Shown here: positions 1 through 11,288 of the stretch, piece by piece
Numbering within the stretch: the stretch's first letter is position 1
Layout of the letters: every line of letters begins with the position of its first letter
DNA from: Syntrophomonadaceae bacterium
GTDB lineage: Bacteria; Bacillota_D; Dethiobacteria; DTU022; PWGO01
NCBI GenBank assembly: GCA_003554535.1
Contig: PWGT01000007.1
Span: forward strand, 1-11,288
DNA length: 11,288 nt
Direction of reading: 5' to 3'
Position numbers and translations under genes: made by a program
The notes under the pieces: model-generated
What the model saw: the letters and a program-made list of their open reading frames with translations, nothing else
The model's database searches: none
What the model was told of the DNA's origin: nothing

Positions 1-10
1 TATGAAATTA

Positions 11-16
11 TATAAT
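11..16 (+). promoter_or_regulatory. -10 box of the tRNA-Arg promoter
   Basis: A perfect TATAAT lies 34 bases before the tRNA. The -35 element would fall left of the window start, so only half the promoter can be seen. The surrounding sequence is very AT-rich, so a chance match is possible. Confidence 0.4.
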
Positions 17-49
17 ATATCTTAGCAAGAAAAAGTAAAGACAAGATAT

Positions 50-125
50 GCGCCTGTAGCTCAGGGGATAGAGCAGCGGACTTCTAATCCGTTAGTCGGG
101 GGTTCGAATCCTCCCAGGCGCGCCA
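50..125 (+). tRNA. tRNA-Arg (anticodon UCU), CCA encoded
   Basis: The full cloverleaf can be drawn by eye. The 7-bp acceptor stem is GCGCCTG (50-56) with CAGGCGC (115-121), followed by discriminator G122 and an encoded CCA at 123-125. The D-arm is GCTC/GAGC. The anticodon stem is GCGGA/TCCGT around the loop CTTCTAA, giving anticodon TCT, which reads AGA and AGG arginine codons. The T-arm is GGGGG-TTCGAAT-CCTCC with one G-U pair. No neighbouring tRNA is visible downstream, where a REP-like hairpin begins within 15 bases. Confidence 0.97.
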
Positions 126-137
126 CTTTTAATGGAT

Positions 138-171
138 CAGGCAAGGGGACGGTTCCTCTGCCTGTCCCCTT
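138..171 (+). repeat. REP-like palindromic repeat, copy 1
   Basis: The segment contains AAGGGGAC (143-150) pairing with GTCCCCTT (164-171). An alternative pairing is CAGGCA (138-143) with TGCCTG (159-164). Its core at 140-164 matches 23 of 25 positions with the reverse complement of 2547-2571. Hairpins built on GGGGACGGTTC and GTCCCC are scattered repeats in many Bacillota genomes. Such repeats are associated with Y1 (REP-associated) transposases, and a remnant of one lies directly beside this copy. Confidence 0.7.
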
Positions 172-194
172 ACTCCTTATACTTTGATCAATAA

Positions 195-272
195 CTATTT
201 TTTTCGTTTATTTCCACGTAGCATTACATGATCAGTTCCAGATGTACTCAGTTCTCCAAGCCGTCTTGGTAT
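195..272 (-). pseudogene. N-terminal remnant of a REP-associated tyrosine (Y1) transposase
   Basis: Read on the minus strand from 272, the frame gives 25 residues before a TAG at 197-195. They include PRRLGEL, then TSGTDHVMLRGNKRKK. This matches the well-known beginning of IS200-like/RAYT transposases, which start MPRR and continue into a YHVMxRG block carrying the catalytic-domain His region. The initiator here is ATA instead of ATG, although a GAGGAG ribosome site still sits about 9 bases upstream. The rest of the protein, including the catalytic tyrosine and HUH motif, is missing, and the frame runs out just before the REP-like hairpin at 138-171. This is a dead fragment recognised from motif memory, so moderate confidence. 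Confidence 0.6.
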
Positions 273-303
273 TGACTACAACTCCTCACGTTCTTTCCGA
301 ATC

Positions 304-353
304 AATTTTAGGTTTTCACTTTAAATGACCTGGGAATCCTAAAATTCTTTTTT
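304..353 (+). other. Inverted repeat with T-tract between the transposase remnant and the MCP gene
   Basis: AATTTTAGG (304-312) pairs perfectly with CCTAAAATT (338-346) across a 25-base loop, followed by CTTTTTT on the plus strand. It resembles a weak plus-strand terminator with a large loop. It does not face the minus-strand chemotaxis gene, for which no clear terminator is visible. Confidence 0.3.
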
Positions 354-370
354 CGATCCACTCTGTAACA

Positions 371-2155
371 TTAACTCAATAATTTTTTGTTTCTCCCGGA
401 ATCTCCGGATAGCTGAAATGATCTGGTAACATTATTTAATTCCGTAGCTTCCGAACTCATGCTTTCACTTGAACTGGCTATTTCTTCTACCAAAGCTGAA
501 TTTTGCTGAGTAACCTCATTTAATTCTTCCAGATCCTTGGCAATATCATCTACCTCACCAACAGTTTTTTGGGTGTTATTCACAATTTGATCCATAAGTT
601 CCTTTGTATTGTTCATCACTTTGTTACCATACTGGACTTTTTCAACACTCTTATTGACTAATCTTTCTATTTCCTTAGCTGATTCTGCTGTGCGTCCTGA
701 CAAACTCCTGACCTCACTTGCTACTACTGCAAAACCACGTCCATATTCTCCCACTCGGGCAGCCTCTACAGAAGCATTAAGAGAAAGCAGATTAGTCTGA
801 AAAGCTATATCATTAACCTTGGATATTATTTCGCTAATTTCCTGACTGCTTTGGGTTATGTCCTGCATGGCCTTCTGTAATTCTTCCATACCTTCTTCTT
901 CCTGCTGAACCGTTTTTAGAGTTTGATTAGAAAACTTGCTTGCTTCCGAAGCACGCAAAGCTGACTGTTGAATAGAAGAGGCTTCTTCTTCCGTGCGCTG
1001 GGCCAGATCCTGATTGCCATTGGCAATTTCATCGGAAGCATTGGAAACGTTATATGCCACATCCTGCACTCTGTTTAAAGACTCATTAAAGGCAGAAACC
1101 ATTTGGTTTAAGTTATCTGCCATTACTCCTATTTCATCACGTGAATAATGGCTAACCCCAGTATTTAAATCTCTTCTGGCTAATTTTATTAGAGCATTTT
1201 GCACTTTTTGCACCGGGTTAACCACCATGCGGCGAATCGCTATACTCATAGCAAAAATTAAAATCAAAGCTGTAAGAACAAACAACCCAACCACATAATT
1301 ACGAATATCGGTGATATTGTTTATTATTTCCTGGCGATCATTGACTACCTTAATATACCCTTCAACTTCGCCCGCATAATTGGTAAATGGAGTTAAAACT
1401 ACTCCGTATTGCTCATCTTCAGTTTGGGTAAATCTCGTTTCCCCCTGTTGAACTGACTGGAGATAATTTTGATCCACATCCCACTGATCCTCCTCAACAG
1501 TAGCAGTTATTAAACCCTCATCGGGATCCAGGATCTCGGTAGCATCAAAATCATCTGTAGCGAAAGAATATAACAAATACTCGCCGTCATATTCCTCCTG
1601 TAATTCTTCCAAAAATGTCCTGCCCAAATCTGAGCCAAACTCAAAAGAACCTGTGTGCTGACCTTCATAAAACATAGGTGCAACCACCCGGAATCCGTAG
1701 CCTCCTACTCCTCTTTCTATACCGGCTACTATCTCTTGAGATGCATTGGCTTCGTTCACAGTATCTCGAAATTCTTTCAAGCTGTCTCCATACCTTTCCG
1801 GCATGTGCAAACGCAAAAATGATTCAGAATCAGGGGTGTGGAATTGCATCTGTGCCACCTGATCATCCACTGATTCAAATACAGGCAAAAGCAATTCGGC
1901 AAGTTCTTCTCGCTCCCTTTCAGCAAATAATTCTTGCACGTGTTGGTTTTGGGCAATGCTTTGCACTGAAATTTCTGTATTGGTAATCTCTTGTTGAATA
2001 GTTCCCTCAATCGATTCAACAAGCAGATCATATTCATCTTTCTCCCTTTCCATTGCCATATTTGTGGTCATCCCTATAGTAATAAACAAAATTGCAACAA
2101 AACACACAATCACTATAGAACCAATTATACCAAATATTTTTGTTTGCAAATTCAA
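371..2155 (-). CDS. Methyl-accepting chemotaxis receptor with periplasmic dCache-type sensor
   Basis: This is a transmembrane chemoreceptor that would signal through CheW/CheA. Residues here are numbered from the upstream ATG at 2170. TM1 is about 11-33. The external sensor is about 35-285; its [13 protein letters not shown] and later [17 protein letters not shown] blocks resemble the dCache_3 family. TM2 is about 292-313, HAMP about 314-368, and the cytoplasmic coiled coil follows. The signalling hairpin tip is near 455-482 ([20 protein letters not shown]), then [12 protein letters not shown]. There is no NWETF-type CheR tether at the C-terminus. I prefer the TTG start at 2155: GGAGGT lies 7 bases before it, whereas that same GGAGGT would be inside the coding sequence if the ATG at 2170 were used, and that ATG has no ribosome site. 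It is monocistronic as far as visible; ligand unknown. Confidence 0.93.
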
Positions 2156-2288
2156 ATTCTCTACCTCCATTATTTTTGACGTTTACATTCTTAATAACAG
2201 CCTTTATAAATGGTCTTGCTATTGCCAGCAGATATCTATGTATCCAGAACTTTGATTGAATCTACCTTAGCCTCTTTTATTAAAATTA

Positions 2289-2317
2289 AGTATATAAAAA
2301 ATAACACAAAATATCAA
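2289..2317 (-). promoter_or_regulatory. Sigma-A type promoter of the chemoreceptor gene
   Basis: On the minus strand, TTGATA (2317-2312) is followed by exactly 17 bases and TATACT (2294-2289). Each box has one mismatch to the vegetative consensus. Transcription would start near 2282, giving a leader of about 125 bases before the TTG start. I saw no convincing flagellar sigma-D box (TAAA-N15-GCCGATAA) in this region, so expression is probably not tied to the flagellar regulon. Confidence 0.6.
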
Positions 2318-2347
2318 GAAATATGTAATTTTATAATGCTACCACAT

Positions 2348-2379
2348 AGGGACAGGGGGACAGGTTCATTGTCCCACCT
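2348..2379 (+). repeat. REP-like palindromic repeat, variant copy 2
   Basis: GGGACA (2357-2362) pairs with TGTCCC (2370-2375) around GGTTCAT, preceded by another GGGACAGG. It belongs to the same GGGGAC-GGTTC-GTCCC class as the copies at 138-171 and 2547-2579 but is only distantly similar. The following 160 bases hold no gene that I can recognise, only a short direct repeat CATCTGTAG at 2422-2430 and 2438-2446. Confidence 0.55.
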
Positions 2380-2546
2380 GAATAATTATCGTGTAGTAAG
2401 TATTCACAAGGGGTGACAGGTCATCTGTAGGGAATAGCATCTGTAGAAGAATTTGTTTATAGTTTCTGTAATTGTATGCTTAGGACTATAGGGCTGTATA
2501 ACCCGTTAATTAATAATATTTTTCCCTCCCCATTGAAGGGTAGACG

Positions 2547-2579
2547 CAGGCAAAAGAACCGTCCCCTTGCCCGTGCCTG
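2547..2579 (-). repeat. REP-like palindromic repeat, copy 3 (inverted relative to copy 1)
   Basis: CAGGCA (2547-2552) pairs with TGCCTG (2574-2579). The reverse complement of 2547-2571 matches 140-164 at 23 of 25 positions, with the two differences in the loop. The copies are therefore inverted repeats bracketing the chemoreceptor gene. The element ends only 12 bases before the -10 box of the hydrolase gene, and its TTGCCC (2567-2572) could act as a poor -35. Confidence 0.65.
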
Positions 2580-2586
2580 TGTTAAT

Positions 2587-2597
2587 TATGGTAAAAT
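2587..2597 (+). promoter_or_regulatory. Extended -10 promoter of the hydrolase gene
   Basis: TATGGTAAAAT fits the Gram-positive extended -10 pattern (TRTG-N-TATAAT) with one mismatch in the hexamer TAAAAT (2592-2597). If +1 lies seven bases after the last T, it falls on 2604, the A of the ATG. That would make a leaderless message. A TTGCCC inside the adjacent repeat is spaced 19 bases, too far to be a good -35. Confidence 0.45.
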
Positions 2598-2603
2598 AAA
2601 TAT

Positions 2604-3398
2604 ATGAACAGCCTAAATAGCAACAATGAAAAAAGAGAGCAAAACCTTATTCCATTCAAAAAGACAGGCATAAGATTTTTTATTGCCCTAATTGTAGTTT
2701 TTATCCTGTTTTGGCTTTACGTTAACTATTCTACTTATCCTGCAGAAGAAAAGTACTTAGCAAAAATCAAGGCAAACGAGAAGTTATCCATAGAAGAAAA
2801 CCGAGAAAGTAATTTATTCGTTATCACTCCCCAGAAAAAAAATCCAGAATACCCCTCGTTAGTTTTCTACCCGGGTGGCCTGGTAGAACCCAGCGCCTAT
2901 CTTTATAAAATGAGCCACCTAGCAATAAACCTGAAAACTAATGTCTTTATAATCCAGCCTCCCTTCAACGCTTCCATTTTTGCAATTAATTCAGCAGACA
3001 AAGTTTTTGAACATTACGAGAGCGTTAATCAAGAGAAACTTACAGAAATTTGGGTAGGCGGCCATTCGCTTGGTGGAATTGCCGCTTGCCGTTATGCAAA
3101 AAATAATCCTAATAAAATACACGGAGTATTTTTGTTTGGTAGCTATTGTGATCAAAACATAAAAGATCATGAATTTAAGATTATTTCAATAATGGGATTA
3201 GAAGATAACATAATCGACTGGGAAAACTACACTAATGCACGCCAAAACCTCCCCCCACATGCTAAAATTCAAGAAGTTGAAGGCCTCAACCACTCAGATT
3301 TTGGCAATTACGGCATACAGGACGGTGATGGAAAAAGCCAGTTAAACAACCAGGAAATTATTACTTTAATCACAAAAACTTTTCAATCGACATTTTAA
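2604..3398 (+). CDS. Membrane-anchored alpha/beta hydrolase (serine hydrolase)
   Basis: The 264-residue protein has a basic N-terminus, then one hydrophobic segment at about 24-41 that probably anchors it with the catalytic domain outside the cytoplasm. The domain shows YPGG (89-92, oxyanion-hole region), the nucleophile elbow GGHSLGG with Ser155, Asp201 in GLEDN, and His230 in GLNHSDFGNYG. This Ser-Asp-His order and the tail resemble the Abhydrolase_5-like (PF12695) family seen in many Bacillota. The substrate cannot be told; esters or peptidase-like roles are both possible. A TAA at 2592 in the same frame rules out any upstream start, and the ATG at 2604 has no Shine-Dalgarno sequence, which fits a leaderless transcript. 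It is alone on the plus strand. Confidence 0.88.
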   Translation: MNSLNSNNEKREQNLIPFKKTGIRFFIALIVVFILFWLYVNYSTYPAEEKYLAKIKANEKLSIEENRESNLFVITPQKKNPEYPSLVFYPGGLVEPSAYLYKMSHLAINLKTNVFIIQPPFNASIFAINSADKVFEHYESVNQEKLTEIWVGGHSLGGIAACRYAKNNPNKIHGVFLFGSYCDQNIKDHEFKIISIMGLEDNIIDWENYTNARQNLPPHAKIQEVEGLNHSDFGNYGIQDGDGKSQLNNQEIITLITKTFQSTF

Positions 3399-3410
3399 AG
3401 AACATACATG

Positions 3411-3575
3411 TGACGACTCCCCGGACTAAAGTCCGAGGTTTTCCCGGCGTGATTCTATAATAATTAAGTCGCTCTCTTAAAACTGTTTTTCTATTTATAA
3501 AGATCCAGCAACTCAGTCGATTCCACAAGAAGAGCTATCATTTCCCGCCTTTTCAAGAGTCTGAACCAGACTCAT
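3411..3575 (-). pseudogene. Decayed right end of an IS605-family element (tnpB C-terminal tail plus omega-RNA-like hairpin)
   Basis: On the minus strand, 3575-3513 reads MSLVQTLEKAGNDSSSCGID then stop. The block TLEKAGNDSSSCGID is, as I remember it, typical of the last residues of TnpB proteins of IS605-family elements. It is followed at 3435-3422 by the hairpin CGGACTTTAGTCCG, then GGGGAGTCGTCA ending at 3411. A hairpin followed by GGGGAG is the usual layout of the right end, which also forms the 3' end of the TnpB guide RNA. Stops occur immediately upstream in this frame, and the RuvC and zinc-finger parts are not recognisable. The boundary is only 12 bases after the hydrolase stop codon. 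Confidence 0.5.
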
Positions 3576-3580
3576 TTTTT
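3557..3580 (+). terminator. Possible rho-independent terminator (plus strand)
   Basis: GAGTCTG (3557-3563) and CAGACTC (3567-3573) form a perfect 7-bp stem with loop AAC, followed by A and six Ts. It lies 158 bases after the hydrolase gene and could end its transcript. It also lies within the putative tnpB tail, so the hairpin may be incidental. Confidence 0.45.
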
Positions 3581-3585
3581 ATTAC

Positions 3586-3768
3586 TCAACACCCCACTTC
3601 CCCATAATGTCCACAACAGTTTTTTCTGGTTTTTAATTTAATTAGGTTATTGCGAGTCGCCATTTTTAGTTTTTCCCAAAAGGGAGTCGGGCTACGCTTC
3701 CAATTACTAAAGATGGCTTTTAACGAAGGTTTGGGAGTAGCTTTAGGCTTAGAGTTGGTTCGACACAT
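3586..3768 (-). CDS. Small basic ORF with Cys-rich tail, unknown function
   Basis: This is a 60-residue reading frame if started at the ATG at 3768, where GGAGAGGGG lies about 9 bases upstream. A longer start at 3813 has no ribosome site. The product is rich in Lys and Arg (for example KPKATPKPSLK) and ends with NCCGHYGEVGC, three Cys in the last ten residues. There is no signal peptide or membrane segment. It lies downstream of the second Fe-S protein gene on the same strand and just before the IS605 remnant. I do not recognise the family. It may be a genuine small protein or part of decayed mobile DNA; the plus-strand frame across it looks like a shadow. Confidence 0.3.
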   Translation of the reverse strand: MCRTNSKPKATPKPSLKAIFSNWKRSPTPFWEKLKMATRNNLIKLKTRKNCCGHYGEVGC

Positions 3769-3882
3769 ATCTATAGTTCCCCTCTCCAAATATTTATACA
3801 TTAAATGGTGCAACTTAATACATCATAGCAATCAGCAAGGCAGACGAAATAATTCCAATACCCCTGTAGTTCTCAGAAAGAT

Positions 3883-4710
3883 TTATTTACCTATATTAAC
3901 CCGATTAGATAATCTCTCTATAACGTTGCTAACATAAGAATCATCATTTATGTTCAATTCAATGGCACCCGATTTGCAAGCGCTCACGCACCTTCCGCAT
4001 GCCATGCAGGTATCCAGTATGGTAGCCTTATTATTTCTCATCTCAATACCGCCAAAAACACACACATCTAAACAATTACCGCATCCAACGCAATCATCGG
4101 AGACAGTCACCTCTGCTCCGGGCAGCTTTACAAACCATTTGGTCAAATATGGCGATAAATAAGGTGTAGCAATTGAAATGCAACAACAAGGACAGCAACT
4201 ACATATTGTAAACAATCTTTTATGATCATCCAAATCAAGCCAGAGAGTATCAAAGGAAGCCTTGCCCGCTAAATAAATCATTCCTTTTTCCTGGGCTTTT
4301 CTAATGTGCTCTTTTGCTTCTTCCTTGGTTGCTTCTCGGCATAAGTTTGGATGAATACCACGGGCTGCCTCTCCCATAAAAATACATCCAAAACCTTGCG
4401 AAAAATCCTTACATCCGTTTGACGATCTGCAGATACAATCATTCATTATTACCCGATAGCTTGATTCATCAATAAAATGCTCAATTATCTGGGTGGGCAA
4501 AACCATTTCTTCGCTGTCAATTTCCTGATCAATAACTACCTTATCGTTTGGCAAACAAACCAGTTCATCACTCTTGGGTATGATCTTTTCGGAAACTTTT
4601 TGAGCAAGTTTGGGAAATTTTTTTAGTGGATCATATCTGTATAACCTCGGCTTGTAAGTCATTTTATATACAAGCTTGCCTATTTTCTTATACAACAATC
4701 TTTTATCCAT
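3883..4710 (-). CDS. 2[4Fe-4S] ferredoxin-type protein with CxCCxCCC motif
   Basis: A 275-residue, probably cytoplasmic iron-sulfur protein. The N-terminus is basic and has no membrane segment. A middle region has DCICRSSNGC (Cys92, 94, 100) and GCIFMG (Cys109), then the dense block CSCCPCCC (Cys170, 172, 173, 175, 176, 177). The C-terminus has two ferredoxin motifs: Cys207, 210, 213, 217 and Cys235, 238, 241, 245. The usual Pro after the fourth Cys is absent in both. The same middle motifs occur in the protein encoded at 6511-7608, so the two are paralogous over that region, but this one lacks the winged helix. AGGAGG lies 6 bases before the ATG. It is last of the minus-strand genes, 285 bases after the FAD enzyme. 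Electron transfer is implied; partners unknown. Confidence 0.88.
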   Translation of the reverse strand: MDKRLLYKKIGKLVYKMTYKPRLYRYDPLKKFPKLAQKVSEKIIPKSDELVCLPNDKVVIDQEIDSEEMVLPTQIIEHFIDESSYRVIMNDCICRSSNGCKDFSQGFGCIFMGEAARGIHPNLCREATKEEAKEHIRKAQEKGMIYLAGKASFDTLWLDLDDHKRLFTICSCCPCCCISIATPYLSPYLTKWFVKLPGAEVTVSDDCVGCGNCLDVCVFGGIEMRNNKATILDTCMACGRCVSACKSGAIELNINDDSYVSNVIERLSNRVNIGK

Positions 4711-4995
4711 AATTTCCTCCTAACTTGATAAATTTTTTGAGATATGTAGTATGGAAAACCGACTATTGTAGCAAAGCAAGAAGGAATTTAGTAGATAAAT
4801 GGATATCTGCTTATAGTGCAAGAATAACTGCTAAATATATTACTTATCACAAAAAACTATGTTCTAAATTATAATTTCGCCAAAAGTTAATACTTCCCTT
4901 TTATTGATCATAGCTGAATTATTACCGGGAGATTAACTACGTTAAATCATAGTTTTCACGACAATAAGTTTAAGATAATATTTTGCCGCTCAATT
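4711..4995. other. Intergenic region between FAD enzyme and second Fe-S gene
   Basis: These 285 AT-rich bases hold no ORF of note. On the minus strand, a TACAAT near 4772-4777 could be a -10 box for the Fe-S gene, but no matching -35 is clear. No strong terminator follows the FAD gene, so read-through is possible. Confidence 0.3.
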
Positions 4996-6399
4996 TTATT
5001 CTGCTCCCCTTAAAATTCGCCACAATTTAAGAGCACTGTCAGCGGCCATTTCCATGCCCACACCCCTTCCTCCAACATCGGAACCTACCAGGTATAAGTT
5101 CTCTATGGGGGTCTGGTGTGATGGTCTCTTATCACCAACCTGGGAAGGAGTCTGGGCTACTCCTATTACTTCTCCGGTTTTGCGCCCGGAAATACCTGCT
5201 ATATAATGTGTGTCAGTCCGCAATTTCCACTCCACATGCTTTTCGATATCAGGGAAAAGGTGTTGCATAGTGTTTTCAATACGACCCAAGACCTGTTTGC
5301 AAAATTCGCTGGCCATCTCTTTATCCTCAAGGCCCGGTAATGTCGCTGATCCGGCCAAGACTATCTGGCAGCCGTTAGGAGCCAGTGAAGGATCTACAAG
5401 AGAAGGAACGGTTACAAAAATTCCCGTCAATTTATCTTCCAATTCCGGATAGTTATTAAAATCAGGGGTATAGTAAAAAAGATGTGGTTTTACCACTTCT
5501 TTGTTCAAAGCATATTTAACAGTTACTGCTCCCAAAGAAAGGAGAAGTTCAGAGACTTTTTGCCTGTAATTTTGAGGAAAACACTCAGGCCCTGCTAACT
5601 CAACAGTTTCCTTGATTCCCGTATTACTAATTACTATGTCAGCGGGAATAAAACCGCCAGCCTCTACACCGGTAGTTTTGTTATTTTGGACAACAATTTT
5701 TTCCACAGGGCGATTGTAGCAGATTTCTCCCCCCAATATTTCCAACCTCCTTAAGTAATCAAGGGGAGGAGCTCCGGCACCGCCCAGGGGGTAGGACATA
5801 CTGCTGGAAGCAAAACTTCGGGAGAAACAATAAACAAATTCACCGGCAGAAGCCTCTTTTCGAGGAAGCACCACACCCATTGCCGTCAACGCCGTTATTA
5901 GCCTGGTAAACTGCCGGTCATGTACAAATTCCTTTGAATAATCATAAATTGAAAGGGGATCAATTTTTTCTTGTTCTTTTCTCGGCGGTATCTGAGCAAG
6001 TTTATTAAAAAAAGCCTGGGCGCCTGGCATGTTTTCAGGCAAAACCCCTATATTTTCTAACATTTTATTGATTTCACCGGGATCACCCATATCCCTGGCC
6101 CAATGAATAGTTTTGTCTCCGGTAGTAAGTTGTATAGCCGGATCGGGAGCGCAGAAAACAAGACTACCGCCTGTCAATTCACTGATCTCTCCCAAAGGAC
6201 CATTATCTCCCCGTGATAACCAATGCACACCTGTGTCATAATAAAAACCATCTTTTTCCAGGGTGGCAGCTTTCCCACCACCAAAAGGGTTTCTCTCCAG
6301 AACAGTAACTTTAGCCCCCTCGCTAGCCAGCAGAGCAGCTACTCCGGCTCCACCAACCCCGGAGCCTATGATAACAACCTCTTTGCCTCTTAATTTCAT
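4996..6399 (-). CDS. FAD-dependent oxidoreductase, phytoene desaturase / retinol saturase-like
   Basis: The 467-residue protein begins with a Rossmann FAD-binding fold: VVIIGSGVGGAG (Gly12, Gly14, Gly17), then Glu35 closing the second strand, and GGGKAATLEKDGFYYDTGVHW. It ends with LVGSDVGGRGVGMEMAADSAL, the C-terminal FAD-contact motif typical of CrtI-like amine oxidase superfamily enzymes. Length suits the family (about 460-520). Carotenoid synthesis is unlikely because no crtB or crtE gene is nearby. The gene lies between two related Fe-S protein genes, so I infer a redox enzyme that exchanges electrons with them, perhaps on a lipid or acyl substrate. A GGGGGG ribosome site lies 8 bases before the ATG. 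It begins 111 bases after the upstream Fe-S gene on the same strand. Confidence 0.88.
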   Translation of the reverse strand: MKLRGKEVVIIGSGVGGAGVAALLASEGAKVTVLERNPFGGGKAATLEKDGFYYDTGVHWLSRGDNGPLGEISELTGGSLVFCAPDPAIQLTTGDKTIHWARDMGDPGEINKMLENIGVLPENMPGAQAFFNKLAQIPPRKEQEKIDPLSIYDYSKEFVHDRQFTRLITALTAMGVVLPRKEASAGEFVYCFSRSFASSSMSYPLGGAGAPPLDYLRRLEILGGEICYNRPVEKIVVQNNKTTGVEAGGFIPADIVISNTGIKETVELAGPECFPQNYRQKVSELLLSLGAVTVKYALNKEVVKPHLFYYTPDFNNYPELEDKLTGIFVTVPSLVDPSLAPNGCQIVLAGSATLPGLEDKEMASEFCKQVLGRIENTMQHLFPDIEKHVEWKLRTDTHYIAGISGRKTGEVIGVAQTPSQVGDKRPSHQTPIENLYLVGSDVGGRGVGMEMAADSALKLWRILRGAE

Positions 6400-6510
6400 T
6401 TAAACTGCCCCCCTGCAATAATTGGTAAGATTATTAGTTGGATGAAAATAGAAAATACTCCATAACTGATTAATGAAAAGTAATAATTTAACAATTAATG
6501 TCATTGCTAA

Positions 6511-7608
6511 TCATTCATCACGTGGAGGGAGAATAAAAATTTCCCGCTGCTCCGTATTAACAAGCTTTATGCCTATAGGATCTTCCGGGCAAAAATGAAC
6601 ACATACTCCGCACCCGATGCATTTCTTTTTATCAACTACTGCCACATCATCAAGTATTTGGATAGCATCAAGAGGACATTTATCTTCACAGATCCCGCAG
6701 CCAATACAATTTTCAGCGTCCACACTAGCAAGATAATAAGTTACCGTATGAAATGGGATAGCTCCTTCATAAAAAAGACGAAAAATCCCGCAGCAACAGC
6801 TACAACAACTGCAAATGCCATCTATTTCTCTTGCCATGTCTAATTGGCTATGGAATATTTTATGGACAAGTCCGTTGTCTTCTGCTTCCCGAAGAACTTC
6901 TTTGGCCTTTTCTTTGGTAATTTCCTGAGCAAAGTCATAGTTTACGGCAAATTCAGCAATTTTTCCGAAAATAAGGCAATTATGGCGTATATCTGTTACC
7001 TGGCAAGGCTTACCGGTTAAATCTCTTTCAATCCGGCAATAGCAGTGAGCCAGAGCAAACTTATCCTGTGCTTCCACAATCTGGTCTATGTCTTCGGAAG
7101 GAATGATCATGTCTGCCTCCTCCGAGACAACTTCATTAACGGGGACCACCCGGGCGGGAACAGGAAGAGTCTTAGCCCCGGACATCATCAAGTCATAATT
7201 TCTTTGAGCACCGGCACGAAGTTCTGCAAACAATTTTTCCATGTATTCTGCAATTTTCTGAGATTCTTTATCTTTTTTACCGCGCATCATCTGAAATTCA
7301 ATTATACCCGGAAACGGAGGCATGAGGGTATATACTTTAATACCTGTTTTACGGCTATGGGTTCCGGCAATAAAACCTTTTCTCATAAGATTTTCAAGTA
7401 ATTCTTCGACCTTTTCGCGGGGCAGTTCTGCTACTTCCATTATTTCATCTATATTCATGGAATTTTTGCCAAATACAGTTAGTAATTCTGCTTCTTCTTC
7501 CGTAATAAGGGCTTGGAAAAATTCGATCATTGTATCGGTAACAGGAAACGGCATTTTGCCTGCCTGAACAACCCGGTCCGCTAATTGAAACCATATTTTG
7601 TTTGACAT
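6511..7608 (-). CDS. Winged-helix / 2[4Fe-4S] ferredoxin fusion protein with CxCCxCCC motif
   Basis: From the ATG at 7608 the protein has 365 residues. Residues about 34-96 look like a winged helix-turn-helix (MNIDEIMEVAELPREKVEELL, then a KGFI wing and TGIKVYTL). Then come HCYCR (Cys189, 191), Cys202, CLIFG (Cys211), and CSCCSCCC (Cys266, 268, 269, 271, 272, 273). The tail has two classic ferredoxin motifs: Cys301, 304, 307, 311-Pro and Cys330, 333, 336, 340-Pro. I chose 7608 because GAAGGAGAG lies 6 bases upstream of it; the first ATG at 7671 lacks a ribosome site. The domain mix suggests either a redox-sensing regulator or an electron carrier using the winged helix for protein contacts. 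It sits 66 bases after the acyl-CoA synthetase gene. Confidence 0.87.
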   Translation of the reverse strand: MSNKIWFQLADRVVQAGKMPFPVTDTMIEFFQALITEEEAELLTVFGKNSMNIDEIMEVAELPREKVEELLENLMRKGFIAGTHSRKTGIKVYTLMPPFPGIIEFQMMRGKKDKESQKIAEYMEKLFAELRAGAQRNYDLMMSGAKTLPVPARVVPVNEVVSEEADMIIPSEDIDQIVEAQDKFALAHCYCRIERDLTGKPCQVTDIRHNCLIFGKIAEFAVNYDFAQEITKEKAKEVLREAEDNGLVHKIFHSQLDMAREIDGICSCCSCCCGIFRLFYEGAIPFHTVTYYLASVDAENCIGCGICEDKCPLDAIQILDDVAVVDKKKCIGCGVCVHFCPEDPIGIKLVNTEQREIFILPPRDE

Positions 7609-7674
7609 ATGTATCTCTCCTTCATCAATTAATATGGAGATTGACATACTCCCAAAATCTGACTCAAACACTTT

Positions 7675-9582
7675 TTATTCTTGCTTTGCTTTCTCATTTT
7701 TGTATAAATCCTCTATGCGGTCTGCGTATTTATTTTCCACAGCATGTTTTTTCACCTTAAGGGTAGGGGTTAATTCACCTCCCTCCAGAGATACTGCTTC
7801 TTCTATGAGGATAAATCTTTTTACCTGTTCGAAATTGTTAAAGTAATAATTAGCTTCCTCTACTTCTTCTTTATAAAGATTTGCCACTTTTTCATCTTTA
7901 AATAACGAAGGATCAACTTTGGAGGGAATCTTTTCGCCAACCTGGGTATAGGTATATTCGGTGAGGTTTCTATCAAAATCTACTTTGTTTTCTTCGGCAA
8001 AATCCACTAATTTTTTGAATTCAGGCTGTATCAAGGCTGCTATATATTTTCTGTTATCGCCTAAAACTATTGCCTCTTCAATCCAGGGACTTTTCCTTAA
8101 CTTTTCCTCGATGGGAAGAGGCGCCACATTTTTACCTGTAGAAAGTACCAGAATATGCTTTTTGCGTTCTTTATAAAAAAAGTATCCTTCATCATCAAAA
8201 AACCCGATATCACCGGATTTTAACCAGCCATCTTCCGTTATAGCTTCTTTGGTTTCTTCAGGAAGATTATAGTAACCCTGCATTATGCCATCACCCTTAA
8301 TAAGTAATTCGCCATCTTCGGCAATTTTTTCTGTTATTCCGGGAATGGGTGGTCCCACAGAACCCGGCCGGAATTTATTTGAAGGAACAATGTTAACAGG
8401 TCCGGCAGTTTCTGTAAGCCCGTAGGTTTCCAGTAGTGGAAGACCTATTCCGTTAAAGAAATATGCTAATTCTTTGCGCAAAGAGGCAGCACCTGAGACA
8501 CATGTTCTTAAACGTTCTAGTCCACCCATAATTCTTATTTTCCGGAAAACCAACCGGTCAGCCAAGCGATGCTTGAACTGTAACCCCCGAGAAGGTTCTT
8601 TATTTTTACTTCGTGTTTCTCCGATATCCCGGGCGACCCCGGCAGCCCAGTAAAATATCTTGCGGCGAAGTATTCCCGATGACTCCACTTTTTCTATTAG
8701 TCTGTCATAGACGCGCTCCCAAAGCCTGGGCACTGCAGCCATGGCTACAGGCCTAATAAGGGATATGTCTTCTGATAATTTTTCCGGAACGCTGAAATAA
8801 CATGAAAGCCTTCCTATGAGTGAACAGAGAAAATTTGCCCGCATGCCAACATGGGCAAAGGGTAAAAAACCAAGCATAATGTCACCGGGTTTATAATCTA
8901 AAACTTCCTTTAAACCGAAAGTTATGGAGATTAAGTTCCAGTGGGTTAACATGACCCCTTTAGGATTTCCGGTGGTCCCGCTGGAATAAATAATACTACA
9001 AAAATCATCGGGTTTGATGTTATGCTGCCTTTCTTCGTAAACCAGGGAGTTTTGTTCATTCTTTGCTCCCAACTTCTTTAACTCTTCCAGGGAGTAAATG
9101 TTTTCATGAGTGTTTTCCTGGGGATCAATGTTAATGATGTATTCTAAATGAGGAATATTTTTCTTAACTTCCAGCACCTTATCCAATCTTTCTTGATTGT
9201 CTACAAATATTAGTTTACTGCCTGAATCATTAAGAATATATTCTATAGAAGGAGAAGAAAGAGTGTGATATATGGTAACAGTAACTCCTCCTGTAGTGAG
9301 GATTGCAAAATCCGCCAGGGGCCATTCGTACCTTGTTTCAGACAGAATGCTGATTCTGTCACCTTTTTCTAAGCCCAGGGCTATTAAACCAAGAGCAAGT
9401 TCCTTTATTTCCCGGGAAAACTCCCGGTAAGTCAGCTTGGTAAATTCATTTTCTCCCGGCTTTCGGTAAGCTGCAGCCACTACTTCCGGATCAGCTATAG
9501 TGGCAGTGTTCAACAAGTCCCCCAGGGTTATCCTTTTAAAAAACGGCAACTCTTTTCCCTTAACTATTTTTTCGGAAGTCAT
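7675..9582 (-). CDS. Long-chain acyl-CoA synthetase (AMP-forming)
   Basis: It activates fatty acids to acyl-CoA with ATP and CoA through an acyl-adenylate. The 635-residue ANL-superfamily protein carries the P-loop YSSGTTGNPKG (199-209), FLPFAHVG (239-246), the A5 motif YGLTET (387-392), SGDIG (456-460), the hinge region YKERKKHILVLSTGKNVAP (470-488), and the C-terminal LTPTLKVKK (604-612) with the catalytic Lys. The TGKNVAP and LTPTLK forms are characteristic of the long-chain (FadD15/FAA-like) branch rather than acetyl-CoA synthetases. AGGA lies 7-8 bases before the ATG. The gene is followed after 66 bases by the winged-helix Fe-S gene and preceded by a 500-base gap after the hydratase. Chain-length preference cannot be read from sequence. 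Confidence 0.94.
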   Translation of the reverse strand: MTSEKIVKGKELPFFKRITLGDLLNTATIADPEVVAAAYRKPGENEFTKLTYREFSREIKELALGLIALGLEKGDRISILSETRYEWPLADFAILTTGGVTVTIYHTLSSPSIEYILNDSGSKLIFVDNQERLDKVLEVKKNIPHLEYIINIDPQENTHENIYSLEELKKLGAKNEQNSLVYEERQHNIKPDDFCSIIYSSGTTGNPKGVMLTHWNLISITFGLKEVLDYKPGDIMLGFLPFAHVGMRANFLCSLIGRLSCYFSVPEKLSEDISLIRPVAMAAVPRLWERVYDRLIEKVESSGILRRKIFYWAAGVARDIGETRSKNKEPSRGLQFKHRLADRLVFRKIRIMGGLERLRTCVSGAASLRKELAYFFNGIGLPLLETYGLTETAGPVNIVPSNKFRPGSVGPPIPGITEKIAEDGELLIKGDGIMQGYYNLPEETKEAITEDGWLKSGDIGFFDDEGYFFYKERKKHILVLSTGKNVAPLPIEEKLRKSPWIEEAIVLGDNRKYIAALIQPEFKKLVDFAEENKVDFDRNLTEYTYTQVGEKIPSKVDPSLFKDEKVANLYKEEVEEANYYFNNFEQVKRFILIEEAVSLEGGELTPTLKVKKHAVENKYADRIEDLYKNEKAKQE

Positions 9583-9752
9583 TTTTGTTCCTGGTTTTCC
9601 GAAGCATTAATATCTTTCAGGTAAATACTCAGGCTATGCATACATCCCCACTTTCCCCTCCCTCCCAGAAATTGGAGAAAAAGTGTAGATAAGCAAAAAT
9701 AAAACAATGCCCTTGTTGCCAAGCTAAGTAGATACACCTTTAGATAGAAATG

Positions 9753-9923
9753 CTTCCAGTGCCTAACATTTTGGTTAGTCAGGCAGATAGCTCACGGGAG
9801 TATGCAGTTCACCCACCCTATTGCAGCAGTATGGTTATTCTATATTCCTCCACTGGTAAGGAAAGTTGTCTTACTCAATACGGCTGGTGTCTTTTCTTTC
9901 AGGCGGTGCCGCCTGGTTTTCTT
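9753..9923 (+). ncRNA. Possible small structured RNA, plus strand
   Basis: The segment begins with a long-range stem (9753-9761 with 9851-9860) enclosing a local hairpin at 9763-9778, and it ends with a good intrinsic terminator at 9900-9923. Nothing else on the plus strand would use that terminator. No clear promoter was found; TTGCCA near 9717-9722 with TTAGAT about 18 bases on is weak. It would be transcribed opposite to the flanking acyl-CoA genes. The RNA family is unrecognised. Confidence 0.25.
9900..9923 (+). terminator. Rho-independent terminator (plus strand)
   Basis: CAGGCGG (9900-9906) and CCGCCTG (9909-9915) form a GC-rich stem with a minimal loop, followed by GTTTTCTT. The opposite strand lacks a T-tract after the stem, so the orientation is plus, against the flanking genes. 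Confidence 0.5.
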
Positions 9924-10083
9924 ATCCCCGAGCTATCAAAACTCAGGTTTTTTTCACCTGCCTTTTCCATAAGATATAAGACAAGCTGTGACCGGTGAAG
10001 TATATTTTCCTTGGGCAAATCTGCAGGGTTTTCTGCCAGTGAGAATGCTTAGTTTTTACAAAAAATATTATAAATAGCACATT

Positions 10084-10932
10084 TTAAGTGTTAAACCATG
10101 CCGCGGCGTTGGTTAAGCAATATTCACCTCTTTCTTTTGTTTTACATCTAAATAATATCATTTCCGGTGATTCCTTCCACATTTCAGTTACTATAGTTTC
10201 TCCCGGGTACACGGGCCTGGAAAAACGAACTTTGATGGCTTTAAACATCTCGGTATTGTCATTACATAGTCTCCTGAGGATAGCTCTTCCCGCAACACCA
10301 AAAGTGCAAAGACCGTGTAAAATAGGTTTTTCAAAGCCAGCCATTTGAGCAAACTCGGGATCTATATGCAAAGGATTTGAATCGCCGGAAAGGCGGTAGA
10401 TAGCAGCCTGCTGGGGAAGAGTTTCTAACTCTACCACCTCGTCTGGCTCCCTGTCAGGTGCTTCATAGCCGGGCTCCGGGCCTTTTTCTCCTCCAAAACC
10501 ACCTTCACCTCTAATAAAAAAGCCAATGCGGTTATAATAAACTACGTCCCCTTTATTATCTACTGTGTCTACGTCTATTTCCACCAAAGCACCTTTGCCT
10601 TTGTCATAAATATTGGCTATCTTTGGTTTGGATATCAGTTCTCCATCAACAGGAGCCGGATGTTTCCTTTGCTCCAGATACTGCTCACCATGCAGTAGCA
10701 TAGCCGGATTAAACTGAATTTCCTCCATGCTCATAAAACTGGTAACCGCAGGCACCAGGGGAATTACTCCAAAAGTAGGCAAAGCCACCAGGTTATTTTC
10801 GTATACGTATTTTAGATCTTCCGGCTCTGCTCCGGCACCAACTCCAAGAGCATAAAGTATCACATCTTTCTGGGTGAAATTGTAAGGTAACGGTTCTAAT
10901 TCTTTACCAACTGCTGACAAATCAATAGGCAT
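10084..10932 (-). CDS. MaoC-type 2-enoyl-CoA hydratase (hydratase 2, R-specific)
   Basis: This is a 282-residue double hot-dog protein. The C-terminal half carries the hydratase-2 signature YRLSGDSNPLHIDP (179-192) with catalytic Asp184 and His189, five residues apart as in the family, followed by FEKPILHGLCTFG. The N-terminal half is the degenerate hot-dog that shapes the acyl pocket, as in eukaryotic peroxisomal MFE-2 and related bacterial long-chain hydratases. It is expected to hydrate trans-2-enoyl-CoA to (R)-3-hydroxyacyl-CoA. AAGGAGGT lies 7 bases before the ATG, a near-perfect ribosome site. It is the first visible gene of the minus-strand fatty-acid and redox set; no dehydrogenase or thiolase is in the window. 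The R stereochemistry is inferred from the family. Confidence 0.92.
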   Translation of the reverse strand: MPIDLSAVGKELEPLPYNFTQKDVILYALGVGAGAEPEDLKYVYENNLVALPTFGVIPLVPAVTSFMSMEEIQFNPAMLLHGEQYLEQRKHPAPVDGELISKPKIANIYDKGKGALVEIDVDTVDNKGDVVYYNRIGFFIRGEGGFGGEKGPEPGYEAPDREPDEVVELETLPQQAAIYRLSGDSNPLHIDPEFAQMAGFEKPILHGLCTFGVAGRAILRRLCNDNTEMFKAIKVRFSRPVYPGETIVTEMWKESPEMILFRCKTKERGEYCLTNAAAWFNT

Positions 10933-10969
10933 AAATAATTACCTCCTTCTAATTATTAATATTTTTATT

Positions 10970-10988
10970 TAGGCTGATCCTCAGCCTA
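10970..10988 (-). other. Hairpin in the hydratase mRNA leader
   Basis: TAGGCTGA and TCAGCCTA form a perfect 8-bp stem with a 3-base loop, about 20 bases upstream of the hydratase ribosome site. There is no T-tract on the minus strand, so it is not a terminator. It could stabilise the 5' end of the message. Confidence 0.45.
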
Positions 10989-11022
10989 CCTGAAGCCGTT
11001 TCTCATAAAATAAACTGCTTAC

Positions 11023-11051
11023 TTTATATTAGAATAACAATAGCTTAAAAA
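11023..11051 (-). promoter_or_regulatory. Candidate promoter for the hydratase gene
   Basis: On the minus strand, TATAAA (11028-11023) could be a -10 box. Seventeen bases upstream is TTTTTA (11051-11046), a poor -35 that overlaps the palindrome at 11045-11072. Transcription would start near 11016, giving a leader of about 84 bases containing the hairpin at 10970-10988. AT-rich sequence makes false matches likely. Confidence 0.28.
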
Positions 11052-11072
11052 TAATTTTCTAATTATTTTTAA
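11045..11072. repeat. Perfect AT palindrome upstream of the hydratase
   Basis: TTAAAAATAATT (11045-11056) is the exact inverted repeat of 11061-11072, with a TTCT centre. It overlaps the candidate -35 region, so it could be an operator, but a 12-bp all-AT palindrome may also arise by chance in such AT-rich DNA. Confidence 0.4.
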
Positions 11073-11075
11073 AAC

Positions 11076-11095
11076 TGCTATATAACATTATAGCA
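11076..11095. repeat. Inverted repeat TGCTATA-N6-TATAGCA
   Basis: A 20-base imperfect palindrome with 7-bp arms lies just upstream of the AT palindrome. Its size and symmetry suit a dimeric regulator such as a TetR-family protein, which often control fatty-acid genes in Bacillota. No regulator gene is in the window, so this is only a candidate site. Confidence 0.35.
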
Positions 11096-11288
11096 TATGA
11101 ATGTGTTTGGAAGATAATGTTTTTAAAAAATTTTGATTTAATTTACATAATTTATGAGATCGTATAAATTTCATAATTAGGCGAGAAGGCATTGATTATA
11201 TTCAAATAAATTGACCAAAATTATAACGGCTATTTTTTGGGGGGGGGCAATAATTGAAGAAACTTCTTAAAGCCTAGCTTTGATAGAA
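11096..11288. other. AT-rich intergenic DNA with poly-G tract
   Basis: I see no gene in this end segment. The notable item is TTTTTT followed by nine Gs at 11233-11247. Past it lie two tiny inverted repeats (GAAG-AAA-CTTC and AAGC-CTA-GCTT) near the window edge. A neighbouring gene or its control region may begin beyond the window. Confidence 0.4.

Follow-up and report, generated by a model that had tools for sequence, protein, structure and literature searches.

Two proteins encoded in the window, the whole stretch of 11,288 nucleotides analysed here (Syntrophomonadaceae bacterium, assembly GCA_003554535.1, contig PWGT01000007.1, positions 1 to 11,288), belong to one widespread and unnamed family of iron-sulfur (Fe-S) proteins of anaerobic bacteria and Asgard archaea that carries a module of ten cysteines. 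These proteins, FeS_S and FeS_L, share the pattern CxCR...C...C...CxCCxCCC, which is followed by a 2[4Fe-4S] ferredoxin domain; their genes lie on either side of that for a CrtI-like flavin adenine dinucleotide (FAD) oxidoreductase. On balance we favour the reading that both are redox adaptors with extra metal clusters, serving CrtI-like FAD and acyl-CoA enzymes, where the metal content, the flow and direction of electrons and the substrate are what we infer.

FeS_L has exactly 18 cysteines, ten extra and eight in the ferredoxin domain, and FeS_S has 20, with C52 and C124 in addition to the same ten and eight. Fer4 scores above the Pfam cut-off in the two proteins (34.2 and 50.9 bits vs 21.1), and the eight ferredoxin cysteines form two CxxCxxC...C sets. 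An earlier note, made from the DNA letters, had described the CxCR motif, further conserved cysteines, the CxCCxCCC block and the C-terminal 2[4Fe-4S] domain in both proteins, with at least ten cysteines outside the ferredoxin motifs; the cysteine positions and Fer4 scores agree with this, and the count is ten in FeS_L and twelve in FeS_S. Six cysteines within eight residues appeared in 6 of 20,000 shuffled sequences for FeS_S and in none of 20,000 for FeS_L.

The ten-cysteine pattern is conserved beyond chance because, when FeS_L was aligned without a motif filter to 118 of 150 relatives among the matches listed in two protein searches, six of the ten extra cysteines were invariant and the remaining four at least 90% conserved. 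A larger set of 165 sequences was selected by motif, a choice that in itself fixes C1, C2, C5, C6 and the Arg/Lys following CxC; all eighteen cysteines, ten extra and eight ferredoxin, are present in 137 of these, and the ferredoxin cysteines are kept in about 157. A Glu-Ala pair (93% each) and a Gly-Leu pair (94 and 91%) are also conserved in this set. Another motif-picked alignment fixes C7-C9 by construction as well, and a further alignment includes some motif-scan rows. Where an extra cysteine is replaced in the 165 sequences, which are not phylogenetically independent, Asp, Glu or His takes its place in 24 of the 35 non-gap cases, the commonest being Asp at the fourth cysteine of the block (11) and Glu at the fourth cysteine overall (7, one clade). 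Because the replacements are mainly of these three residues, metal binding is favoured, and the ten extra cysteines probably bind metal, as the earlier note had suggested.

FeS_S and FeS_L are homologous but distant, with 24% identity over 207 columns (E 1e-13). A FastTree phylogeny, with some long branches, separates the family into two deep clades, one of small members (S) without a winged helix and one of large members (L), the latter also including a few short rows; the small and large labels require 3 changes on the tree vs about 50 when shuffled. FeS_S is placed with L001 and L206, and FeS_L among sequences from Asgard archaea, Actinomycetota and Deltaproteobacteria. A recent duplication giving rise to FeS_S and FeS_L is ruled out by the two deep clades, so the paralogy proposed earlier holds in the deep sense only.

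The earlier note knew of no characterised system of this kind, and 63 excised ten-cysteine domains gave no consistent Pfam or NCBIfam family up to E 1. The HdrB-type CCG domain had no Pfam match up to E 1 in FeS_S, FeS_L or the 63 excised domains, and FeS_S fell below the NCBIfam cut-offs for HdrA2 (44.7 vs 1100 bits) and EFR1 (40.8 vs 75 bits), in both cases over its ferredoxin end. In a profile search of the PDB with the ten-cysteine domain, up to E 10, the matches were designed proteins only, namely designed pentatricopeptide repeat (PPR) proteins (E down to 2.9e-9, the matching stretch being repeated there) and one other design, and were dismissed as a short helical stretch. PDB matches of the whole Fe-S proteins track the ferredoxin part, and a few alignments extend into the cysteine block. 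The AlphaFold2 models are confident, with a mean predicted local distance difference test (pLDDT) score of 93.2 and 91.9 for the two proteins. Foldseek returned nothing at E <= 0.001 for either whole-protein model, the ten-cysteine domain not having been searched alone, and VIA-align rows for the whole-protein models cover mainly the winged helix or the ferredoxin; it is possible that the ten-cysteine domain has a known fold. FeS_L has an N-terminal winged helix that the earlier note lacked (TrmB, PF01978, 34.4 bits vs a cut-off of 25.6). No description of the family or motif was found in the literature by motif strings or by setting, most subscription journals lying outside the coverage.

Named relatives of FeS_L are mostly Asgard archaea among the best 120 of 428 matches, and the 30 matches listed for FeS_S include two named relatives, a Thermodesulfobacteriota and a Desulfatibacillum metagenome-assembled genome. 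A pattern scan of a genome collection gave at least 593 matches, at least 437 of them encoding relatives, and 80 loci were kept. The ten-cysteine domain profile was then surveyed at E <= 1e-8 in the phyla of four of the loci. It was present in 115 of 148 sampled genomes of the Asgard phylum (that of L035, Lokiarchaeota), 97 of 198 of the Deltaproteobacteria-type phylum (L002), 53 of 296 Actinomycetota (L025) and 18 of 151 Chloroflexota (L008). The copy numbers per genome in this survey are lower bounds. Three genomes hold about 19-23 members each when ferredoxin-only matches are set aside.

A form without the ferredoxin, 181-202 amino acids long and consisting of the ten-cysteine domain with Glu at the fourth cysteine, was found at eight loci (L227-L234) in seven genomes of the Chloroflexota sample. 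At seven of these loci, from six genomes, its gene (for example L227:5423-6004) is divergent from genes for a formate-tetrahydrofolate (THF) ligase, AcsV, a MinD-like ATPase and a FolD-like protein; these neighbours were profile-checked in L227 only, FolD being recognised by eye and the rest by similarity. The six genomes appear to have a Dehalococcoidia-like make-up. At the eighth locus, L234, the gene adjoins one for a DNA polymerase III subunit instead. Since this form exists in compact Chloroflexota genomes, the ten-cysteine domain is an independent module. Degenerate members also occur (L236:5558-6367 and L237:5647-6456), in which CNCDQDC replaces CxCCxCCC, two cysteines of the block being changed to Asp and one to Met.

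The features of the window that concern the family and its neighbours are as follows.

3883..4710, minus strand: FeS_S, 275 amino acids, small type without winged helix, AGGAGG 5' of the ATG
4426..4437, minus strand: CICR motif of FeS_S (C92-R95), the first two extra cysteines
4384..4413, minus strand: C100 to C109 of FeS_S, extra cysteines 3 and 4
4180..4203, minus strand: CSCCPCCC block of FeS_S (residues 170-177)
3976..4092, minus strand: span of the 2[4Fe-4S] ferredoxin cysteines of FeS_S (207-245)
4996..6399, minus strand: CrtI-like FAD oxidoreductase, 467 amino acids, PF01593
6511..7608, minus strand: FeS_L, 365 amino acids from the ATG at 7608, large type, GAAGGAGAG 5' of the ATG
7291..7545, minus strand: winged helix of FeS_L (about residues 22-106), TrmB by sequence and winged-helix folds by structure
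7033..7044, minus strand: CYCR motif of FeS_L (C189-R192)
6976..7005, minus strand: C202 to C211 of FeS_L, extra cysteines 3 and 4
6790..6813, minus strand: CSCCSCCC block of FeS_L (residues 266-273)
6589..6708, minus strand: span of the 2[4Fe-4S] ferredoxin cysteines of FeS_L (301-340)
7675..9582, minus strand: AMP-forming acyl-CoA ligase (FadD-like), 3' end 66 bp before FeS_L
10084..10932, minus strand: MaoC / MFE-2-type hydratase, 501 bp upstream of the ligase

The order of transcription on the minus strand is MaoC-type hydratase, FadD-like ligase, FeS_L, CrtI-like FAD enzyme and FeS_S, with intergenic gaps of 501, 66, 111 and 285 bp. FeS_L and FeS_S are each preceded by a good Shine-Dalgarno sequence; with an alternative start at the in-frame GTG at 7671, FeS_L would be 21 amino acids longer. 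The ligase and FeS_L are likely to share one transcript. Promoter-like matches (26 vs 19.8 in shuffles) and terminator-like matches (16 vs 7.5) are scattered and uninformative on the operon. The FAD enzyme between the two Fe-S genes was recognised correctly in the earlier note (PF01593, 76.4 bits vs a cut-off of 19.8), and so was the redox setting near acyl-CoA genes, with the AMP-forming ligase and the MaoC-type hydratase upstream. The enzyme falls below the cut-off of the NCBIfam phytoene desaturase model TIGR02734 (crtI_fam; 92.6 vs 238.1 bits) and also misses that of the NCBIfam carotenoid isomerase, and a carotenoid function is not claimed. Elsewhere in the window are a tRNA-Arg(TCT) at 50-125, a methyl-accepting chemotaxis protein with a dCache_3 sensor domain at 371-2170, and, seen by eye in intergenic DNA at 144-171, 2346-2372 and 2551-2575, short GGTTC-like/GGGGACAGG repeats.

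The electron-adaptor reading is drawn from the combination of two cubanes and a cysteine-rich metal site that is at times found beside flavin, tungsten and acyl-CoA enzymes. In each adaptor the ten-cysteine domain (CxCR-C-C-CxCCxCCC) is joined to the ferredoxin, and electrons would be exchanged between the cellular ferredoxin pool and the two cubanes. The ten cysteines may hold one or two further metal clusters that continue the electron path, the other end of which would be the FAD of the intervening CrtI-like enzyme. The N-terminal winged helix of the large type is probably a docking surface. FeS_S and FeS_L would both serve this one FAD enzyme. Its substrate may be a long-chain or isoprenoid acyl compound, which it would saturate, isomerise or desaturate and on which the ligase and hydratase encoded upstream would also act. 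Published work describes related needs for electrons. CRTI reoxidises its FAD with oxygen or quinones and CRTISO requires reduced FAD (PMC3382138), which suggests that members of the CrtI family need a redox partner. The geranylgeranyl reductase of M. acetivorans requires a ferredoxin encoded in its own locus (PMC10821996); it resembles the present case as a FAD enzyme acting on an isoprenoid lipid with a ferredoxin from the same locus, but belongs to another flavoenzyme family, and its partner is described simply as a ferredoxin. EtfD couples fatty-acid oxidation to an electron chain through unusual clusters (PMC13083937). The CCG domains of HdrB and EtfD, with a noncubane [4Fe-4S] and a linear [3Fe-4S] cluster, are alike in placing a cysteine-rich domain beside two cubanes and differ in that the Pfam scans of the Fe-S proteins gave no CCG match. 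In comparison with a clostridial-type Fer4 2[4Fe-4S] ferredoxin, the ferredoxin is here the tail of a protein of 275-365 amino acids with ten further conserved cysteines.

The gene arrangement of the window recurs in part in other genomes. Among 80 small-type loci a second family gene was found in 7 and a CrtI-like gene in 3, all within those 7. Two of the loci, L028 (Chloroflexi) and L054 (Desulfobacteraceae), have orthologous S (73% identity), L (72%) and FAD (51%) genes in different orders, and in L206 a distance of about 40 bp separates the FeS_S ortholog from a FAD homolog 34% identical to the FAD enzyme of the window. The L206 region (L206:1-11956) holds three CrtI-like and two FAD_binding_4 flavoenzymes and the FeS_S ortholog, followed by a TetR regulator and an AMP-binding gene. 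Twenty-seven relatives of FeS_L have at least 38% identity; a FAD gene lies within 3 kb in five of them (three closely related Actinomycetota and two Asgard), a same-strand AMP-binding ligase in four (the three Actinomycetota FAD loci and L150) and an aldehyde oxidoreductase in four, from two Asgard genomes. Ligase, FeS_L and FAD gene thus stand together in the three closely related Actinomycetota loci. The FAD enzymes near FeS_L relatives are of different subfamilies, mostly 18-27% identical. In a single reading frame of 868 amino acids (L220:4017-6623) an AMP-binding ligase and a large-type member are fused, and one single-copy member (L213) lies 67 bp downstream of an aldehyde oxidoreductase gene. 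The gene caller was home-made and gave some wrong frames, such as the first 340 residues of an 851-amino acid FAD frame in L129, and missed the family gene of L235.

Several results weigh against a dedicated partnership with FAD and acyl-CoA enzymes. No FAD, ligase or aldehyde oxidoreductase gene lies within 3 kb in 17 of the 27 close relatives of FeS_L. In three genomes with 63 family hits a FAD gene lies within 3 kb of five hits, two of which are probably halves of one gene (expected 2.1, P 0.065), and a ligase near seven (expected 3.5, P 0.064); the proximity is only about twofold, with P 0.06-0.10 over the distances tried. For one complete chromosome P ranges from 0.03 to 0.4 depending on distance, uncorrected. 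Around the best match of the FAD enzyme in each of 17 Actinomycetota genomes no family gene was called in the surrounding DNA, partly cut by contig ends, and of its ten nearest orthologs eight lie at a distance of 2.1-3.1 kb from an aldehyde:ferredoxin oxidoreductase gene. Several single-copy members adjoin housekeeping genes, including an SRP54-type GTPase, an inositol-phosphate synthase and a Mg-chelatase-like gene.

Other counts belong beside these. An aldehyde oxidoreductase is near one of the 63 hits (expected 0.6). Two hits in G002 are probably halves of one gene, so that the count near a FAD gene becomes 2 of 19 instead of 3 of 20, and the clustering of family genes with each other (P 0.02-0.03) also leans on this pair. 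Each of the 17 Actinomycetota genomes in which a close FAD match occurs has at least five family genes, compared with any family gene in 36 of the 279 others, and the 17 may form one clade. In L184, with a 41% FAD match, a frame of 89 amino acids located 213 bp away matches the full-length family profile and lacks the ten-cysteine domain. The FAD orthologs near aldehyde:ferredoxin oxidoreductase are those of L189-L193 and L195-L197, with a dihydrodipicolinate-synthase-like gene in between in L192. A common locus for single-copy members was rejected, as no neighbour family occurs in more than 4 of 20 loci (12 from genomes with a single match and 8 from genomes with more), only some of the neighbours being annotated. 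A fixed Fe-S/FAD/Fe-S operon as a general feature was rejected, with a set of small-type, large-type and FAD genes in 3 of 80 small-type loci and weak proximity statistics; the module proposed in the earlier note finds partial support, and the local order is one among many arrangements. The linkage to CrtI-like and acyl-CoA genes that the earlier note proposed to look for recurs in the Actinomycetota loci but is missing around most close relatives of FeS_L.

Other roles for the cysteines and the winged helix have been weighed against that of an electron adaptor. Large-type members could be redox- or metal-sensing transcription regulators, with the winged helix as the DNA-binding part and the Fe-S and ten-cysteine parts as sensors, each copy controlling the enzyme genes that adjoin it. 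We think this unlikely. Among 95 close relatives the predicted recognition helix has a net negative charge in 85% (mean -2.2), and for a broader set of 55 the figure is 62%, the limits of the helix being taken from the predicted model and the evidence being a charge pattern only; a mostly negative recognition helix is combined with a positive wing. Because the recognition helix is mostly acidic, the predicted winged helix probably does not read DNA in the classical way, though it may still bind it. Furthermore, small-type and ferredoxin-less members have no winged helix, in one case a large-type member forms a fusion with a ligase, and a complete 2[4Fe-4S] pair is unusual in a sensor. It is also quite improbable that the ten-cysteine domain is a catalytic thiol/Fe-S site, like that of ferredoxin:thioredoxin reductase or heterodisulfide reductase, which reduces a disulfide, persulfide or thioester via its own ferredoxin. 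The cysteines exceed the need of two cubanes, the Glu-Ala and Gly-Leu residues are conserved, and the noncubane cluster of HdrB, with a bridging cysteine, serves disulfide chemistry (PMC13083937), but PDB profile, Pfam and NCBIfam searches gave no sequence link to such enzymes and the annotated neighbours suggest no disulfide substrate.

The catalytic subunit of ferredoxin:thioredoxin reductase has the motif CPC-x16-CPC-x8-CHC, with CxC motifs around an Fe-S cluster and extra cysteines. The cysteine spacing of the family differs from this motif, and no PDB chain of that subunit was among the matches of the ten-cysteine profile, the domain not having been fold-searched alone. The density of the cysteine block, and the ferredoxin-less form beside the formate-THF ligase/AcsV/MinD-like ATPase/FolD-like operon in compact Chloroflexota genomes, would suit a metal store or metallochaperone (for zinc, nickel, copper or Fe-S assembly) outside the electron path. 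However, nearly all motif-selected members retain ferredoxin cysteines that would be superfluous for a store, and we regard this role as very unlikely. A tentative and rather doubtful extension of the adaptor reading is that the ten cysteines form a previously undescribed composite metallocentre, a portable module with or without ferredoxin, whose copies are each assigned to their own flavin, tungsten or acyl-CoA enzyme. Within the CxCCxCCC block of FeS_L a CxxCxxC set (266, 269, 272) interleaves with a CxxC pair (268, 271), so that a single loop would hold either two clusters or one larger, fused one. The CxCR motif and the two single cysteines would supply further ligands, and in some Asgard archaea and anaerobic bacteria the module would have multiplied to about 20 copies per genome.

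Unless its cofactor turns out to be new, the family falls among the Fe-S electron-transfer proteins. It is found in most sampled Asgard genomes and in half of the sampled Deltaproteobacteria-type genomes, with many copies in some, and no Pfam or NCBIfam model covers its most conserved part. At about 190 residues, the ferredoxin-less form offers a small and simple target for identifying what the ten-cysteine site binds. If this site is a cluster, anaerobic metabolism would have in it a widespread redox centre that is so far unexplored, one that would help to explain how flavin and tungsten enzymes exchange electrons in uncultured anaerobes.

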